Of a stretch of DNA of 64,000 bases, positions 23,445 to 31,335 are shown one piece after another (position 1 is the stretch's first letter; each line of letters starts with the position of its first letter). The DNA is from Flavobacterium sp. 270. Lineage in GTDB: Bacteria; Bacteroidota; Bacteroidia; Flavobacteriales; Flavobacteriaceae. The stretch covers positions 1 through 64,000 of the forward strand of contig NZ_SODM01000001.1 in the NCBI RefSeq assembly GCF_004368785.1, read 5' to 3'. The translations under genes and the position numbers were made by a program. The notes below the pieces were generated by a model. The model worked only from the letters and a program-made list of their open reading frames with translations. It had not been told where the DNA came from and did no database searches.

Positions 23445-25223
23445 ATGTCTGAACAATTAAAATCACAAGAAGAGTTTTTAGCAAATTTTAACTGGCATAA
23501 CTTCCAAGAAGGAATTGATGCAGTAGATGAGAAAAACTTATTAGAGTTTGAAGAACTAGTATCAAAAACTTTCATCGCTACAGATCAAGAAGAAGTAGTT
23601 GAAGGAGTTGTTGTTAGAATTACAGATAGAGACGTTATCGTTGATATCAATGCTAAATCTGAAGGTGTTATTTCTTTAAACGAATTCCGTTACAACCCAA
23701 ACTTAAAAGTAGGTGACAAAGTAGAAGTATTAATCGACATCCGTGAGGACAAAACAGGTCAATTAGTATTATCTCACAGAAAAGCACGTACTATCAAATC
23801 TTGGGATAGAGTTATTGCAGCTAATGAAACTGGAGAAATCGTTAACGGTTTTGTTAAATGTAGAACTAAAGGAGGTATGATCGTTGACGTATTCGGTATC
23901 GAGGCGTTCTTACCAGGATCTCAAATTGACGTTAAGCCAATTAGAGACTACGATGTATATGTAAACAAAATGATGGAATTCAAAGTGGTAAAAATCAACC
24001 ACGAATTCAAAAACGTTGTTGTATCTCACAAAGCGCTTATCGAGGCTGATATTGAAGTACAGAAAAAAGAAATCATCGGTCAATTACAAAAAGGACAAGT
24101 ATTAGAAGGTGTTGTTAAAAACATTACTTCTTATGGTGTGTTCATTGACTTAGGTGGTGTTGACGGATTAATTCACATTACTGACCTTTCTTGGAGTAGA
24201 ATCAACCACCCAAGTGAAGTTCTTGAATTAGACCAAAAATTAAACGTTGTAATCCTTGATTTCGATGATGAGAAAACAAGAATTCAATTAGGATTGAAAC
24301 AATTAAACGCTCACCCATGGGATGCTTTAGATGCTAATTTAACAATTGGTGATAAAGTAAAAGGTAAAGTAGTTGTAATCGCTGATTACGGTGCATTTAT
24401 CGAAGTTGCTGAAGGTGTTGAAGGTTTAATCCACGTTTCTGAAATGTCATGGTCAACTCATTTACGTTCTGCACAAGATTTCGTAAAAGTTGGAGATGTT
24501 GTTGAAGCTGTTATCTTAACTTTAGATAGAGATGACCGTAAAATGTCATTAGGTATCAAACAATTGACTCAAGATCCATGGACTGACATTACTTCTAAAT
24601 ACCCAGTAGGTTCTAAACATACAGGTATCGTTAGAAACTTTACAAACTTTGGTATTTTCGTAGAATTAGAAGAAGGAATTGATGGATTAATCTACATTTC
24701 TGACCTTTCTTGGACTAAGAAAATCAAACACCCATCTGAATTTGTAAATGTTGGTGAAAAACTTGATGTAGTTGTATTAGAATTAGATGTTGAAGGACGT
24801 AAATTATCTTTAGGTCACAAACAAACTACTGCTAATCCTTGGGATCAATACGAAGATTCTTTCGCTGTAGGAACTATCCACAATGGTGAAATTTCTGAAA
24901 TCGTTGACAAAGGAGCTACTGTAGAATTCGGAGATGATATCGTTGCTTTCATTCCTACTCGTCACCTTGAAAAAGAAGACGGAAAGAAATTGAAAAAAGG
25001 TGATTCTGCTGATTTCAAAGTAATCGAATTCAACAAAGAATTCAAAAGAGTAGTTGCTTCTCACACTGCTATCTTCCGTGAAGAAGAAGAGAAAAACGTG
25101 AAAGCTGCAACTGAAAATACTTCATCTAACTCTACTACTAATGCACCAGCTGCAACTTTAGGAGATAACAATGATGTATTAGCTGCATTAAAAGCTAAAA
25201 TGGAAAAAACTGAGAAAAAATAA
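23445..25223 (+). CDS. rpsA: 30S ribosomal protein S1
   Basis: A 592-residue protein with six S1 (OB-fold) repeats of about 85 residues. It follows an acidic N-terminal segment and ends in a low-complexity Asn/Thr/Ala tail and KMEKTEKK. Repeats show the typical G-V-V-x(2)-I-x(2)-Y-G-(V/A)-F-I-(D/E) and G-L-I-H-(I/V)-(T/S)-(D/E)-(L/M)-S-W pattern. The first two are divergent, as expected for the ribosome-binding repeats. Codon use favours TTC, AAC, ATC and CAC far more than neighbouring genes, the mark of high expression. A leader with hairpin precedes the ATG and a terminator follows. Confidence 0.97.
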   Translation: MSEQLKSQEEFLANFNWHNFQEGIDAVDEKNLLEFEELVSKTFIATDQEEVVEGVVVRITDRDVIVDINAKSEGVISLNEFRYNPNLKVGDKVEVLIDIREDKTGQLVLSHRKARTIKSWDRVIAANETGEIVNGFVKCRTKGGMIVDVFGIEAFLPGSQIDVKPIRDYDVYVNKMMEFKVVKINHEFKNVVVSHKALIEADIEVQKKEIIGQLQKGQVLEGVVKNITSYGVFIDLGGVDGLIHITDLSWSRINHPSEVLELDQKLNVVILDFDDEKTRIQLGLKQLNAHPWDALDANLTIGDKVKGKVVVIADYGAFIEVAEGVEGLIHVSEMSWSTHLRSAQDFVKVGDVVEAVILTLDRDDRKMSLGIKQLTQDPWTDITSKYPVGSKHTGIVRNFTNFGIFVELEEGIDGLIYISDLSWTKKIKHPSEFVNVGEKLDVVVLELDVEGRKLSLGHKQTTANPWDQYEDSFAVGTIHNGEISEIVDKGATVEFGDDIVAFIPTRHLEKEDGKKLKKGDSADFKVIEFNKEFKRVVASHTAIFREEEEKNVKAATENTSSNSTTNAPAATLGDNNDVLAALKAKMEKTEKK

Positions 25224-25370: not shown

Positions 25371-25898
25371 TTAATTAGAAGCTAATAATTTAGTTTCTTC
25401 AGGAGTAAATTCAGGTATGATCGCGTAAGAAGTAATTCCTGTTATTTTCATTTCATCAAGAATATCGACTAAATTACCATAATTAGATTTTTTAGTAGGT
25501 TTAATAATTACTGTAATGCCTTGACTTGGCTTACCTAATTTGGCAGAATATTCTAGCACAGTTTTTTTTCTGGCTAATAATTCTTTTCGTATTCCTTCTT
25601 TACCATATTTAACTTCTTTTGGAGAAATTATCGGAGAATTTAGAATTCCCATGTAATATATTAATTTATTATTCTCACCTAACATTACTGTTATTGATCG
25701 ATTTTCTCCACTATGACGTGGAGGGCAATCACAACATCCACGATCTTGTCCTGTAGCATATTCCATAACTTTTGGTTTTGATAATTCACCAACAACCATA
25801 AAAAATATAATCAGGAGAAAAGAAACACTGACCATCGCTGTTAAATCTATTCTTGTACTTAATTTTTTGCTTCTAATTTTTTGAGGAAGGTTTTTCAT
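25371..25898 (-). CDS. ExbD/TolR-like protein, paralog 1
   Basis: A 175-residue protein with a short basic cytoplasmic N-terminus, one transmembrane helix (about residues 21-40) and a periplasmic domain. The layout is that of ExbD/TolR, the stator partner of ExbB/TolQ motors. The helix reads DLTAMVSVSFLLIIFFMV, whereas functional ExbD has D-M-T-P-M-V-D-V, so the proton-carrying Asp is a Ser and the Pro an Ala. After the helix comes a Cys-rich segment (GCCDCPP). The C-terminal half (VIIKPTKKSNYGNLVDILDE) is the conserved ExbD core. It is the last of three tandem paralogs and no exbB is nearby. Confidence 0.8.
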   Translation of the reverse strand: MKNLPQKIRSKKLSTRIDLTAMVSVSFLLIIFFMVVGELSKPKVMEYATGQDRGCCDCPPRHSGENRSITVMLGENNKLIYYMGILNSPIISPKEVKYGKEGIRKELLARKKTVLEYSAKLGKPSQGITVIIKPTKKSNYGNLVDILDEMKITGITSYAIIPEFTPEETKLLASN

Positions 25899-25909
25899 AA
25901 GATGATTTG

Positions 25910-26434
25910 TTAGTTTGAAGCCAATAATTTTGATTCTTCCAAAGTAAATTCGTCTACAATGGCATAAGTATCGATTTTTGCAATTGCCATTTCATCCAAA
26001 ATATCTACAAGATTTTTAAAATTAGATTTTTTACTTGGTTTAATTATTACAATAGCTCCGCTTTTAGGTTTTCCTAACGCAGTAGAATACTCCAGTATTG
26101 CTTTTTGTTTATTAAGCAATTCTTTATGTATACCATTTTCTCCATATGTAAGCTCTTTTGGTGCTTCTCGAGGATAATCTAATAAACCTGAATATGTTAC
26201 TATTTTGTTATTATCATCTAATAAAATTGTATAAATTCGGGTTGCGTCGACACATCCAGGATGACAATCGTCACAGTCATAATCTGGCAGACTTAAATCC
26301 ATTATTTTAGGCTTTCTTAATTCAGTCGCAACCATAAAAAATATGATCAGCAGAAAAGAAACACTTACCATTGCTGTCATATCTACTCTAGTATTTAATT
26401 TTTTGCTTCTAATTTTTTGAGGAAGGTTTTTCAT
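25910..26434 (-). CDS. ExbD/TolR-like protein, paralog 2
   Basis: A 174-residue paralog of the flanking genes. The first 13 residues are identical to paralog 1, and the core (VIIKPSKKSNFKNLVDILDE) is nearly identical to paralog 3. The transmembrane segment again has T-A-M-V-S-V in place of T-P-M-V-D-V. Its variable segment after the helix reads DYDCDDCHPGC, a possible metal or disulfide site. Spacing to each neighbour is 11 bases, so the array is one transcription unit created by tandem duplication. Confidence 0.8.
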   Translation of the reverse strand: MKNLPQKIRSKKLNTRVDMTAMVSVSFLLIIFFMVATELRKPKIMDLSLPDYDCDDCHPGCVDATRIYTILLDDNNKIVTYSGLLDYPREAPKELTYGENGIHKELLNKQKAILEYSTALGKPKSGAIVIIKPSKKSNFKNLVDILDEMAIAKIDTYAIVDEFTLEESKLLASN

Positions 26435-26445
26435 AAGATGATTTG

Positions 26446-26976
26446 TTAGTTTGATGCTAATAATTTAGATTCTTCCGGACTAAAATCACTTACAATTGCA
26501 TAAGTGTCAATTTTTGCAATTGCCATTTCATCCAAAATATCTACAAGATTTCTAAAATTAGATTTTTTACTTGGTTTAATTATTACAATAGCTCCATTTT
26601 TAGGTTTTCCTAAGGCAGTAGAATGCTCAAGTATTGCTTTTTGTTGGTTTATTAATTCTTTTCTGATTCCAGTTCTGCCATAATCCATTTTTTTAGGAAG
26701 TTGATCGGATAATCCATATATTCCTGAATAGGTTATAATTTTGTTATTATCATCGAGTAAAACAGTAATTACGCGATTACCTGTATCCATGTGGCATATA
26801 ATTTTCCCTTTATATTCATAATATTTATCAGGCAGGCTTAAATCCATTATTTTTGGTTTTCTCAATTCAGTTGCCACCATAAAAAATATAATCAGCAGAA
26901 AAGAAACACTTACCATTGCTGTCATATCTACTTTAGTACTTAATTTTTTACTTCTGATTTTTTTATTAGTTTCCAT
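26446..26976 (-). CDS. ExbD/TolR-like protein, paralog 3
   Basis: The first gene of the array, 176 residues. It has a distinct N-terminus (METNKKIRSKKL) but the same helix, T-A-M-V-S-V-S-F-L-L, also lacking the Asp. The post-helix variable segment contains only one Cys and a His (KGKIICHMD), so the Cys-rich feature is limited to paralogs 1 and 2. The promoter should lie in the 295-base AT-rich gap to the fasciclin gene; no TAnnTTTG box is evident there. Confidence 0.8.
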   Translation of the reverse strand: METNKKIRSKKLSTKVDMTAMVSVSFLLIIFFMVATELRKPKIMDLSLPDKYYEYKGKIICHMDTGNRVITVLLDDNNKIITYSGIYGLSDQLPKKMDYGRTGIRKELINQQKAILEHSTALGKPKNGAIVIIKPSKKSNFRNLVDILDEMAIAKIDTYAIVSDFSPEESKLLASN

Positions 26977-27271
26977 AATTAGACTTTTTAATTGTTTTTT
27001 AAACTATTGAATAAAGAAATCTGAATCGAATTACCTTTTATAAATATAATTAAATTTTCATTTGAAATGTTAAAAAATATTAAATATAGAAAACTACTTA
27101 ATCGATTATTGCAATTATTTTAAAAAATTATAAAAATAATTTCATCAATTAAAGGCTTGTTTTACAGTGTTTTTTGAAGACTTTTTAATGAATTTTATTG
27201 TTTTTTATTTTTTCATTAAAACCAAAACAATTATTACAGCGTAAATGAGCTTATAACTTAAAACATTCATT

Positions 27272-27826
27272 ATGAAAACTAGAAAATTTTTAGCAGCAGC
27301 AGTTTTAGCATTAGGATTTGCATTTACATCTAATGCACAAAAAACAGTAATGGTAGGAGGAGCAGCAATGTATCCAAACAAAAACATTATTGAAAACGCT
27401 GTAAATTCAAAAGACCATACTACTTTGGTTGCAGCTGTAAAAGCAGCAGATTTAGTAACAACTTTACAAGGAAAAGGGCCATTTACTGTTTTTGCTCCAA
27501 CAAATGCTGCATTTGATAAACTTCCAAAAGGAACTGTTGAAACATTATTAAAACCAGAAAACAAAAAAATGCTTCAAACTATTTTGACATACCATGTTGT
27601 TGCTGGAAAAATGAATGCTTCTGATATTGCAAAAGCTATTAAAATGGGTAAAGGAAAAGCTACTCTTAAAACGGTAAGCGGTGGAACTTTGACAGCTTGG
27701 ATGCAAGGTAAAGATTTATACATCAGCGACGAAAGCGGTAACAAAGCAAAAGTTACTATTGCAGATGTAAACCAATCAAACGGAGTAATTCATGTAGTAG
27801 ATACTGTATTGTTACCAAAAAAATAA
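27272..27826 (+). CDS. Secreted fasciclin (FAS1) domain protein
   Basis: A 184-residue protein with a signal peptide (residues 1-22, ending T-S-N-A-Q) and one FAS1 domain. The H1 box reads GKGPFTVFAPTNAAFDKLP and the H2-type end reads GVIHVVDTVLLP, with LTYHVVAGKM between them. FAS1 domains mediate adhesion or protein contacts at the cell surface; bacterial roles are poorly known. It is a single gene with a strong terminator. There is no T9SS sorting domain, so export beyond the periplasm is not indicated. Confidence 0.9.
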   Translation: MKTRKFLAAAVLALGFAFTSNAQKTVMVGGAAMYPNKNIIENAVNSKDHTTLVAAVKAADLVTTLQGKGPFTVFAPTNAAFDKLPKGTVETLLKPENKKMLQTILTYHVVAGKMNASDIAKAIKMGKGKATLKTVSGGTLTAWMQGKDLYISDESGNKAKVTIADVNQSNGVIHVVDTVLLPKK

Positions 27827-29147: not shown

Positions 29148-30959
29148 CTAACTTTTTTTTGATTCTTTTTGTTTTCTAAGTTCTTCTCTTTGATCTAGAA
29201 ACTTTTGTCTCTCATTTAATCTCATTTCTTTTTCCTGCAGTTTCATTTGTTTTTCAAACTGCTTCATATCAACTTCAAACTTCTTCATGTTTTTTGCGTA
29301 CTCGCTGTCAGAACCAAATTTTAGTTCCATATCACGACCAAATTTCTCCATGTCAGCATTATATTTTTCCATGGCTACTTGATATTTCTCCATTTCTTTA
29401 TTAAAAACGGCAGAACGTTTTTCCATAACTTCTTCCATTTCTTTTTCGAAAGAAGCCATTATTGGTTCTAAGCGTTCCATTTTTTTATCAAATTCCTCCA
29501 TTTCTTTTTCAAATTTTTTCATGGCAGCTTTATCATTTAGATTTTTAGGAGCTATAGGTGGCTTTGGCATATTGGCAATAGCTGCAGCCGGAACTTGTGG
29601 CATTGGTCCCTGAGGAAATTGAGGTACTGTTGGAGGTGTTGGCGCATCTGAAACATTTGGTACGTCTGGAGTATCCGGGATATCCGGTGCATCAGGAGCA
29701 TTTCTTACTACAACTCTGTCGTTTTCTACTGTCATTGGCGCGTCTGATTCACCTTCTGTAATTAAATTGACTTTTTTAGTTCCGTCACTTTCTGTAGAAA
29801 TAACAATAGAACATTCTTTAATAGCGTTATTTCCTTCTATCTGAATAGTTTGAACTTCTTCTGTACCGTTCTTAATTTCTACCAGAATGTTGATTAATTC
29901 ATTCTTTGAGTTTCTTTTTACTTCAGAAATTACAACATCAACATTATGTTTTGTTTTTAAAGTTTTAACAAGAGCAGTAAGTTCTTGATCTGTTGTAGAA
30001 TAGGTGATTTTATAAACATCATTATCCTTAGCTTGATTTTGAGTAATTTCTTTTTGAGATTGTTTTTTTTCCTGCGCAATAGTTTCCATTTGAAATAAGA
30101 AAATAAAGGCGCCAAGTGCAGGGATAATGGCAGAATACTTCCAGTAGTTTCTGTTTTTTGATTGATTTTTGTTTAACATGACAATTCGCTTTTTGATTAA
30201 TGATTGATAAAAATGATTGGTAATAGCAGCACAATTTTCGTGTGTTGTTATTTTTAAAAGCGTGTACTGATACGCTTTTTTGTCAGTGATTTTTTTTGAT
30301 GCCACACTATCGGCAATAAATTCCAGGTTTTGCAATATCGCTTTCTTGTAAAGCCAAATAATCGGGTTGAACCAAAATAAAATACAAAAGATTCTCGAAA
30401 TCAAGACATCAATCGTATGATGTTGATCGCTGTGTACTTTTTCATGTTCAAGAATACTTTCTAATTCTGCCGCAGTGTACATTGATGAGTTGTACACTAT
30501 ATAATCAAAATAAGAAAATGGAGCAATGTTTTCATTTACATCTATAAACTTAAAGTCTGCTTGTTGTTTTATTGTTTTACCTTTTAAAACGGAATTTAAA
30601 CTATAAAAATCCAAAGCAAATTTTAGCATAAAGGCAAGAAATCCTATACTATAGACAGCTATCCAGATTAAATTCCAATTAATGGCAAAACTCTCTTTTA
30701 CAATTGTCTGCGGAACATAACCAGAAGAATAACTATAATTAGCTGCAGTGTCTAAAGCCGTTGAAACCGGGGCAGGCTCAATCCATACAATTTGTGTATA
30801 CACTACAAACGGAAGTATAACAGATGTAACTAATCCGGCCAATAAAAACCATCGGCTGCTATTGAAAAATGTTTCTTTGCGTAACAAAAAATAATAAGCA
30901 AAATAAAACATTGCTACTAATCCGCTGGATTTTGCGATATAAATGAAAAGTGCTTCCAT
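29148..30959 (-). CDS. M56 (BlaR1-like) metallopeptidase with coiled-coil tail
   Basis: A 603-residue protein. About four transmembrane helices lie in residues 1-300, with the zinc motif HEKVH at residues 172-176 on the cytoplasmic side. A further helix follows LNKNQSKNRNYWKYSAIIPALG near residue 275. The external region has a DQELTALVKTLKTKHN-type domain, then a Pro/Asp-rich spacer (PDIPDTPDVPNV), then a Met/Glu/Lys coiled coil of about 130 residues. BlaR1-type proteins sense a signal outside and cleave the BlaI repressor inside. The penicillin-binding sensor of true BlaR1 is absent, so beta-lactam sensing is not implied. This is the second M56 gene of the operon. Confidence 0.85.
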   Translation of the reverse strand: MEALFIYIAKSSGLVAMFYFAYYFLLRKETFFNSSRWFLLAGLVTSVILPFVVYTQIVWIEPAPVSTALDTAANYSYSSGYVPQTIVKESFAINWNLIWIAVYSIGFLAFMLKFALDFYSLNSVLKGKTIKQQADFKFIDVNENIAPFSYFDYIVYNSSMYTAAELESILEHEKVHSDQHHTIDVLISRIFCILFWFNPIIWLYKKAILQNLEFIADSVASKKITDKKAYQYTLLKITTHENCAAITNHFYQSLIKKRIVMLNKNQSKNRNYWKYSAIIPALGAFIFLFQMETIAQEKKQSQKEITQNQAKDNDVYKITYSTTDQELTALVKTLKTKHNVDVVISEVKRNSKNELINILVEIKNGTEEVQTIQIEGNNAIKECSIVISTESDGTKKVNLITEGESDAPMTVENDRVVVRNAPDAPDIPDTPDVPNVSDAPTPPTVPQFPQGPMPQVPAAAIANMPKPPIAPKNLNDKAAMKKFEKEMEEFDKKMERLEPIMASFEKEMEEVMEKRSAVFNKEMEKYQVAMEKYNADMEKFGRDMELKFGSDSEYAKNMKKFEVDMKQFEKQMKLQEKEMRLNERQKFLDQREELRKQKESKKS

Positions 30960-30966
30960 AAAACGA

Positions 30967-31335
30967 TTATTTTGTTTCTTTCGGGTTTTCTATCATGGCT
31001 AAAATTTCTCTTAACTCTGCTGCAGAGATTTTTTCTTCTTTAGCAAAAAAGGAAACCATACTTTTATACGAGCTATTAAAATAATTATCAATTGCTGTAT
31101 TCATAAACCCATTTCTATAGTCTTCAATGCTTACAATTGCGTAATATTGATGCGTGTTTCCAAAAGCATTATGGCTCACATAACCTTTCTCTTCAAGATT
31201 ACGAACAATAGTAGAAAGTGTATTATAATGCGGCTGATCTTCTGTAATTTCTGCCTGAATTTCTTTTACAAAAGCTTTTTTAAGCTTCCATAAAATCTGC
31301 ATGATTTCTTCTTCTTTATTGGTTAGCTTTTGCAT
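30967..31335 (-). CDS. BlaI/MecI-family repressor, copy 2
   Basis: A 122-residue winged-helix regulator. KLTNKEEEIMQILWKLKKAF is the first helix pair, and YNTLSTIVRNLEEKGYVSH is the recognition helix and wing. The C-terminal helices dimerise. It differs from copy 1 at about seven of 122 positions, mostly conservative changes, and so is a recent duplicate. The gap to the M56 gene after it is 7 bases. No operator of its own is visible in the 30 bases upstream, so it depends on the operon promoter. Confidence 0.93.
   Translation of the reverse strand: MQKLTNKEEEIMQILWKLKKAFVKEIQAEITEDQPHYNTLSTIVRNLEEKGYVSHNAFGNTHQYYAIVSIEDYRNGFMNTAIDNYFNSSYKSMVSFFAKEEKISAAELREILAMIENPKETK

Follow-up and report, generated by a model that had tools for sequence, protein, structure and literature searches.

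Serine in place of the proton-carrying aspartate in a Flavobacterium clade of tandemly encoded ExbD-family proteins with linker cysteines

What could be the role of an ExbD-family protein that lacks the single axle-helix aspartate on which the 5:2 proton motors (Ton, Tol and Mot) depend? The question is raised by a locus of Flavobacterium sp. 270, lying in the 64,000-nucleotide stretch of DNA that we analyzed (hereinafter the window), where three ExbD-family ORFs are encoded in tandem on the minus strand (25371-26976) with spacers of 11 bases between them. In the order of the array these are paralog 1 (26446..26976; 176 aa; Pfam ExbD E 1e-13), paralog 2 (25910..26434; 174 aa; E 8e-15) and paralog 3 (25371..25898; 175 aa; E 1e-12); we coined the label ExbD-S for such Ser-type ExbD2 paralogs. 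All three translations read T-A-M-V-S-V-S-F at the helix motif, and a serine thus occupies the position of the proton-binding aspartate of ExbD/TolR: Ser23 in paralog 1 (minus-strand codon 26908-26910; the column of Ser24) and Ser24 in paralogs 2 (26363-26365) and 3 (25827-25829). The transmembrane helices bearing this residue, whose boundaries are approximate, comprise residues 19-39 of paralog 1 (26860..26922) and residues 20-40 of paralogs 2 (26315..26377) and 3 (25779..25841), again on the minus strand, as placed by column alignment and with reference to a structural model of paralog 2.

Hence, a sequence-only reading of this DNA was correct in noting that the helix aspartate is missing from all three proteins. 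It further held that both the proline and the aspartate of the canonical motif are replaced: the letters are indeed so, but the loss of the proline is unremarkable, since alanine is the norm in this genome, being present in its ExbD1 (TAMCDVAF) and ExbD2 (TAMVDLAF) as well; only the Asp to Ser change distinguishes the trio. Chance or misalignment can be ruled out as its cause, the motif being unambiguous in the trio and in 220 non-Asp sequences. Moreover, the Ser column is kept among relatives although pS over all pairs of the orphan genes (those outside exbB operons) is ~0.6, and the serine of the trio is therefore not fortuitous. A shift of the aspartate to another place in the helix is likewise rejected, for Asp18 is also present in the Asp-type proteins and Glu38 sits at the periplasmic end. 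This glutamate is new, being E in 206/220 non-Asp sequences with an intact motif, while column 38 is T, S, N or H in 75/75 Asp-type sequences. The same reading had named an aspartate in this column of the family, or one displaced along the helix, as the finding that would overturn it; we observed zero Asp-type tips in the clade described below and no acidic residue inside the helix.

The trio passes the Pfam ExbD (PF02472) cut-off of 25.4 bits with 48.6-55.5 bits (E 1e-12 to 8e-15). The scores lie below the NCBIfam equivalog cut-offs, at best 22 bits vs 127.3 for tolR and 15 bits vs 152.95 for ExbD_1 and 216 for PRK11267, a comparison that covered the trio only and may not discriminate. An AlphaFold2 model of paralog 2, computed from an alignment of 35 rows (the window and the pattern-seeded locus sequences), has a mean pLDDT of 78.5 and a pTM of 0.63; it displays a single N-terminal helix (12-40), a disordered linker with low confidence within 44-60 and then an alpha/beta periplasmic domain, which is the layout of ExbD/TolR. 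When this model was compared with the PDB using Foldseek, the first rank was the periplasmic domain of ExbD (8pek; E 7e-4), the sole match at E<=0.001; that match is modest (rmsd 7.5 and TM-score 0.32 for the model as a whole). Ribosomal proteins take the next three places (ranks 2-4) at similar E-values, followed by TolR (5by4) as fifth and ExbD-D-box (8vgc) as sixth. A sequence search of the PDB with a 38-sequence profile (A2) yielded zero matches at E<=1, and the tie to solved ExbD structures accordingly depends on the Pfam and fold matches. Working ExbD proteins have the essential helix aspartate and are encoded with exbB, whereas the trio has serine in 3/3 and is encoded apart from exbB. 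Thus, these proteins are members of the ExbD family by profile and fold but are not working ExbDs by the defining residue.

The genome of Flavobacterium sp. 270 codes for six ExbD-family proteins, namely a TolR (contig C5), the ExbD1 and ExbD2 of an exbB-exbD1-exbD2-tonB cluster (contig C7) and the trio. Its exbB-family genes are confined to contigs C5 and C7, and searches for exbB, tolQ and TonB_C returned no match within the window, which bears out the earlier remark that neither exbB nor tonB lies near the trio. The same holds beyond this genome: with its own ExbB, TolQ and TonB as queries against 98 stretches, we found none near the orphan loci, the sole hits being in an Asp-type exbB cluster (L237). 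Of the eight TonB_C matches that the whole genome contains, four are clustered on contig C2 (G000, 335559-338962), which has no ExbB match.

To determine how widely such proteins occur, relatives were gathered in two ways. A pattern-seeded search of genome contigs recovered 78 loci, nearly all titled Flavobacterium; because the patterns included D[ML]TAMVSV, these loci favour Ser, while the array neighbours and the profile searches are independent of that motif. Two sets of genus genomes (61 and 249), one of 349 genomes of the family and one of 296 of the order were searched with profiles; these sets overlap, and each contains the window's genome. Typed at the aspartate column, with two shortened Ser copies re-sorted, 304 distinct relatives comprise 216 with Ser, 4 with Asn (L080, L113, L235, L236), 1 with Gly (L203), 8 with a replaced helix start and 75 with Asp, the last being Flavobacterium ExbD2-like proteins, one Asp-type orphan (L232) and sequences from other genera. 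Tandem Ser-type arrays, which the sequence-only reading had proposed to seek in other Flavobacterium genomes, are indeed present: in 79 arrays (the 78 loci and the window) there are one (18), two (34), three (22) or four (5) copies, with the counts including three helix-replaced copies and some arrays being cut by contig ends. A genome listed as Flavobacterium johnsoniae, a genetically tractable species, has two copies (L022). At least two copies elsewhere are shortened (L021:8049-8513 and L042:8556-9044), one ORF beginning inside the helix motif and one lacking about a dozen residues before it, which we take to mean that copies turn over within the arrays.

Within the 249-genome genus set, matches better than 2e-77 occur in 51 genomes, and all 38 of these that were read have Ser; in this listing such matches begin at profile position 1-4 and Asp-type matches at 5-6. 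Among 18 more genomes with at least two weaker matches, 15 have Ser, Asn or Gly and three do not (G683, G718, G850). Non-Asp ExbDs are thereby present in about 66/249 genomes (53 read), a count made at E<=1e-40 that may miss weaker or single remote members. Of these 15 weaker-scoring non-Asp genomes, 14 also have an Asp-type ExbD2; in the other, G047, only the first of two matches was read. Only one of the 51 high-scoring genomes is under 4.4 Mb (G842); large genomes without a high-scoring match also exist. In the wider sets, only three of 349 Flavobacteriaceae genomes matched at E<=1e-45, all of the same genus, the threshold being too strict for remote members; in the order, 75 of 296 genomes matched at E<=1e-12, 24 of them of the same genus and 51 of others. 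The 21 out-of-genus genomes read from among these 51 (22 stretches: L147-L152, L179-L193, L198) all have Asp-type ExbDs, and we reject a broad spread outside the genus, although rare cases may exist among the other 30.

Phylogenetic analysis points to a common origin of these proteins. In a FastTree phylogeny of 90 sequences, all 39 tips with Ser, Asn or Gly group with nine others in a single clade (support 0.974) nested in the Flavobacterium ExbD2 proteins; the nine others are seven helix-replaced and two shortened Ser proteins, and none of the 48 tips is Asp-type. Similarly, a 202-sequence tree sets 181 orphans, none with Asp, apart from the Asp-type proteins (support 0.88). The suggestion that the trio represents an undescribed ExbD subclass is hence supported, in that there is one conserved clade that lacks the aspartate and whose genes, in the stretches searched, have no exbB next to them. 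Most simply, the proton-carrying aspartate was lost once, in Flavobacterium, and the paralogs have been kept since. The codons at this column (n=178: AGC in 98, AGT in 78 and the Asn codons AAT/AAC in two; GAT in 19/19 Asp-type genes) suggest a short path from GAT through AAT to AGT, along which the Asn members may be either halfway forms or later changes.

By sequence and tree, the nearest known proteins are the Flavobacterium ExbD2s of the exbB-exbD1-exbD2-tonB operon (own contig C7, L003), which resemble ExbD-S in length, helix packing residues, periplasmic domain and C-terminal segment. Unlike them, ExbD-S displays Asp24 to Ser, T31 to I and T/S38 to Glu changes, linker cysteines, tandem copies and the absence of exbB nearby. 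Next to the ExbD-S clade, and outside it, the tree places a pair of proteins from genome G850: an Asp-type orphan (L232:4599-5120), the closest of the Asp-bearing relatives that are not encoded in an exbB operon, and, directly beside it on the DNA, an ExbD-like domain protein (L232:4097-4549) with, as read from the letters, a lipoprotein-like start (LLMISC) replacing the transmembrane helix. The helix-replaced members of the main clade have long branches, and in some the helix is still followed by TTSLSKPQSM, as in the Asp-type proteins (L230); their placement there is consequently uncertain and may be wrong. In three cases (L230:3953-6095 and L231:2296-4509; G798) such a gene directly follows a subtilase (Peptidase_S8) ORF, with a 20-base overlap in two; for two of the subtilase ORFs, one of them at a contig end, the match covers the profile only in part, and subtilase and ExbD-like gene might constitute a coupled pair.

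If the aspartate is gone, has the helix been released from constraint? The estimates of dN/dS for the orphans (pooled Nei-Gojobori, 285 between-genome pairs with pS 0.05-0.5) are 0.10 in the helix, 0.50 in the linker and 0.27 in the periplasmic domain. The corresponding values for an Asp-type control (0.03, 0.24 and 0.21) are lower, which suggests weaker constraint on the orphans than on working ExbD2, in a comparison with 8 control pairs only. In the 220 motif sequences M22, L29 and F32 are invariant, and V23, F27, L28, I30, F33, M34, L39 and K41 are kept in 210-219, mostly as the Asp-type letters. The changes from the Asp-type to the non-Asp helix are D24 to S, T31 to I, T37 to G or I and T/S38 to E; in addition, T36 has become V in 109 of the 220 and is retained in 82, and L25, A26 and L35 have mostly become V, S and V. 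A helix serving merely as a lipid anchor would not, judging from these columns, need such conservation. The changes lean towards the face of the aspartate, with 4/5 positions within ~40 degrees of its direction changed vs 4/12 elsewhere, numbers too small for significance and only suggestive.

The second hallmark of these proteins is in the linker. A Cys-rich segment after the helix had been noted in two of the three; the cysteines are there, but all three proteins have them, namely three in paralog 3 (C-C-D-C; Cys55, 56 and 58; 25725..25736), three in paralog 2 (C-x2-C-x3-C; Cys54, 57 and 61; 26252..26275) and one in paralog 1 (Cys61; 26794..26796), all on the minus strand. Across the relatives, one to three linker cysteines occur in every parsed Ser (212/212), Asn (3/3) and Gly (1/1) member, i.e., in 216/216, and in none of the parsed Asp-type (0/73) or helix-replaced (0/8) proteins. 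Of seven unparsed sequences, four of the five non-Asp ones show cysteines, the fifth (L051) being cut before the linker, and the two Asp-type ones show none. As the cysteines, the serine and the clade go together on the tree, perhaps from one origin, this association amounts to few events rather than 216. Decoys, redox partners and stator inhibitors, roles put forward in the sequence-only reading, are at present hypothetical. The strict link between the non-Asp helix and the linker cysteines favours a disulfide or redox element that would act together with the pore helix. With only one cysteine in 41/212 parsed Ser-type linkers, any disulfide there would have to form between chains or with another partner. 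The cysteines directly follow a stretch position-matched to the NIBS strand of ExbD, and in Serratia ExbD a V47C disulfide is reported to lock the closed dimer and to abolish Has haem-dependent growth (PMC10771500).

The best explanation for a frozen helix that has ExbD-like packing but lacks a proton carrier is that it still inserts into the ExbB pore, in a non-driving capacity. We therefore propose that ExbD-S proteins are proton-inert ExbD2 paralogs acting as a non-driving brake, reserve or selector of the Ton motor, a reading that we place somewhat short of an even chance. Under this proposal, the ExbD-S helix would still enter the ExbB pentamer, either as Ser/Ser dimers or in mixed dimers with the Asp-bearing ExbD1 or ExbD2 of the exbB-exbD1-exbD2-tonB operon; as ExbD-S lacks a proton carrier, proton-driven work of the resulting complexes would be lowered or stopped. 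The periplasmic domain could still hold TonB. Since the cysteines come just after the NIBS-matching stretch, whose folding closes the ExbD dimer, a linker disulfide could fix the closed state of an ExbD-S dimer. In keeping with TonB holding, the TonB-contacting edge strand is retained, with I in 170 and V in 11 of 181 sequences at column 159; this strand, as matched by position in the present analysis, would be the D-box-holding strand of E. coli ExbD, whose Leu132 is needed for TonB D-box binding (PMC10907165). On the other side, the E. coli ExbD D25N mutant fails to cross-link with TonB (PMC11658791), which argues against simple TonB holding by ExbD-S. A bolder version, in which Ser-type ExbDs constitute a redox-gated class that replaces working ExbD2 in some ExbB pores, with linker disulfides locking those pores and uptake being tuned by the exchange of live and dead axles, is in our estimate unlikely as a whole.

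That we found neither exbB nor tonB beside the ExbD-S genes is just as compatible with a separate role. In that case ExbD-S would be a membrane-tethered periplasmic domain binding TonB, peptidoglycan or some other partner independently of ExbB, with the helix as an anchor or a dimerization element. Purifying selection acts on the periplasmic domain (0.27), which resembles the ExbD fold; further, the seven helix-replaced relatives in the clade, where the first half of the helix is generic, and the lipoprotein-like G850 version indicate that this domain has apparently been kept without the pore helix. Nevertheless, conservation in the main class is higher for the helix than for the domain, the packing residues of the helix are mostly those of Asp-type ExbDs, and the helix-replaced members, having no linker cysteines (0/8), look like a further departure rather than the type; we consider an ExbB-independent role rather improbable.

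Another possibility is that ExbD-S is a specialized energizing subunit, which would pair with the Asp-bearing ExbD1 in a motor that has a single proton carrier and is tuned to some of the TonBs or receptors. Mixed dimers are plausible, as the normal operon already holds two different ExbDs; ExbD-S is derived from ExbD2, there are eight TonB_C matches in the own genome, and arrays have up to four diverged copies. Yet the sufficiency of a single aspartate is unsupported, the polar helix residues T31 and T37 are largely lost too, and some large genomes have just one, Asp-type-scoring match at E<=1e-40 (G051, read as Asp-type; G787, by score), by which the ExbD-S genes look dispensable; we judge this reading to be quite improbable. 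That the genes are merely degenerating, functionless duplicates is scarcely credible: the variation in copy number from 1 to 4 across the 79 arrays (a few of which are truncated where the contig stops) and the at least two shortened copies (L021:8049-8513, L042:8556-9044) might be expected of decay, but dN/dS is well under 1 in the helix, linker and periplasmic domain alike, the Ser, Glu38 and linker cysteines are nearly constant, most of the 78 loci share one chromosomal slot and the genes persist in about 66/249 genomes of the genus.

Comparison with better-known systems places the proposed non-driving ExbD2 paralogs in context. With the E. coli and Serratia ExbDs (PF02472; 8pek, 8vgc) they share domain architecture, fold and, by position, the NIBS strand and the TonB-contacting edge strand, and they differ from them in lacking Asp25, in having linker cysteines and in their remote sequences. 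TolR has the family and the fold (5by4) in common with them; it is represented in this genome by a separate Asp-bearing copy (contig C5), and the array has no tolQ nearby. The TPH-vWA proteins encoded beside tolQ homologs are likewise unusual proposed occupants of a TolQ-type pentamer pore (PMC12204202); they keep the aspartate and have a vWA in place of the ExbD domain, the reverse of ExbD-S. We found no description of an Asp-less ExbD in a search of open-licence PMC papers. A branch maintained across a genus, in which the aspartate was dropped, the rest of the helix frozen and the motor-gating linker furnished with cysteines, is a natural experiment on the roles of the pore helix beyond proton carrying, and it suggests a mode of nutrient-uptake control that we likewise did not see described in those papers.

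The chromosomal slot itself is the same in most of the loci read. In the window, the array is flanked on its 3′ side by rpsA, coding for ribosomal protein S1 (23445..25223, plus strand; Pfam S1), and on its 5′ side by a gene for a fasciclin-domain protein (27272..27826, plus strand; Pfam Fasciclin). The former is the 3′ neighbour in 67/78 loci and, via an antisense shadow ORF, in 2 more (69 total), no neighbour being found in 9; the latter is the 5′ neighbour in 59/78 and, via such shadow ORFs, in 8 more (67 total), with another gene in 3 and none found in 8. Of 18 further orphan-type stretches, ten are at other locations; in L196 and L239-L244 one or both of these genes adjoin the orphan, and in L197 rpsA does. 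In the consensus of the aligned upstream regions of the relatives there is a TTAACTTTA element ~20-30 nt before the start; the exact element is absent from the window's own upstream region (26977..27271, minus strand), and the strict TAnnTTTG form is seen in 25/79 upstream regions (short ones left out). In three deeper-branching genomes, the single non-Asp ExbD gene is immediately preceded by a same-strand ORF of 238-248 aa (L196:1596-2312, L241:4731-5447, L242:4817-5563); two of the three were scanned with Pfam and gave no match. Pfam scans of the neighbours of other members detected subtilases only (3/10 proteins). Also encoded in the window (29148-31335) is a BlaR1-type M56 peptidase whose C-terminal part is long and charged, adjoining a BlaI-type repressor.
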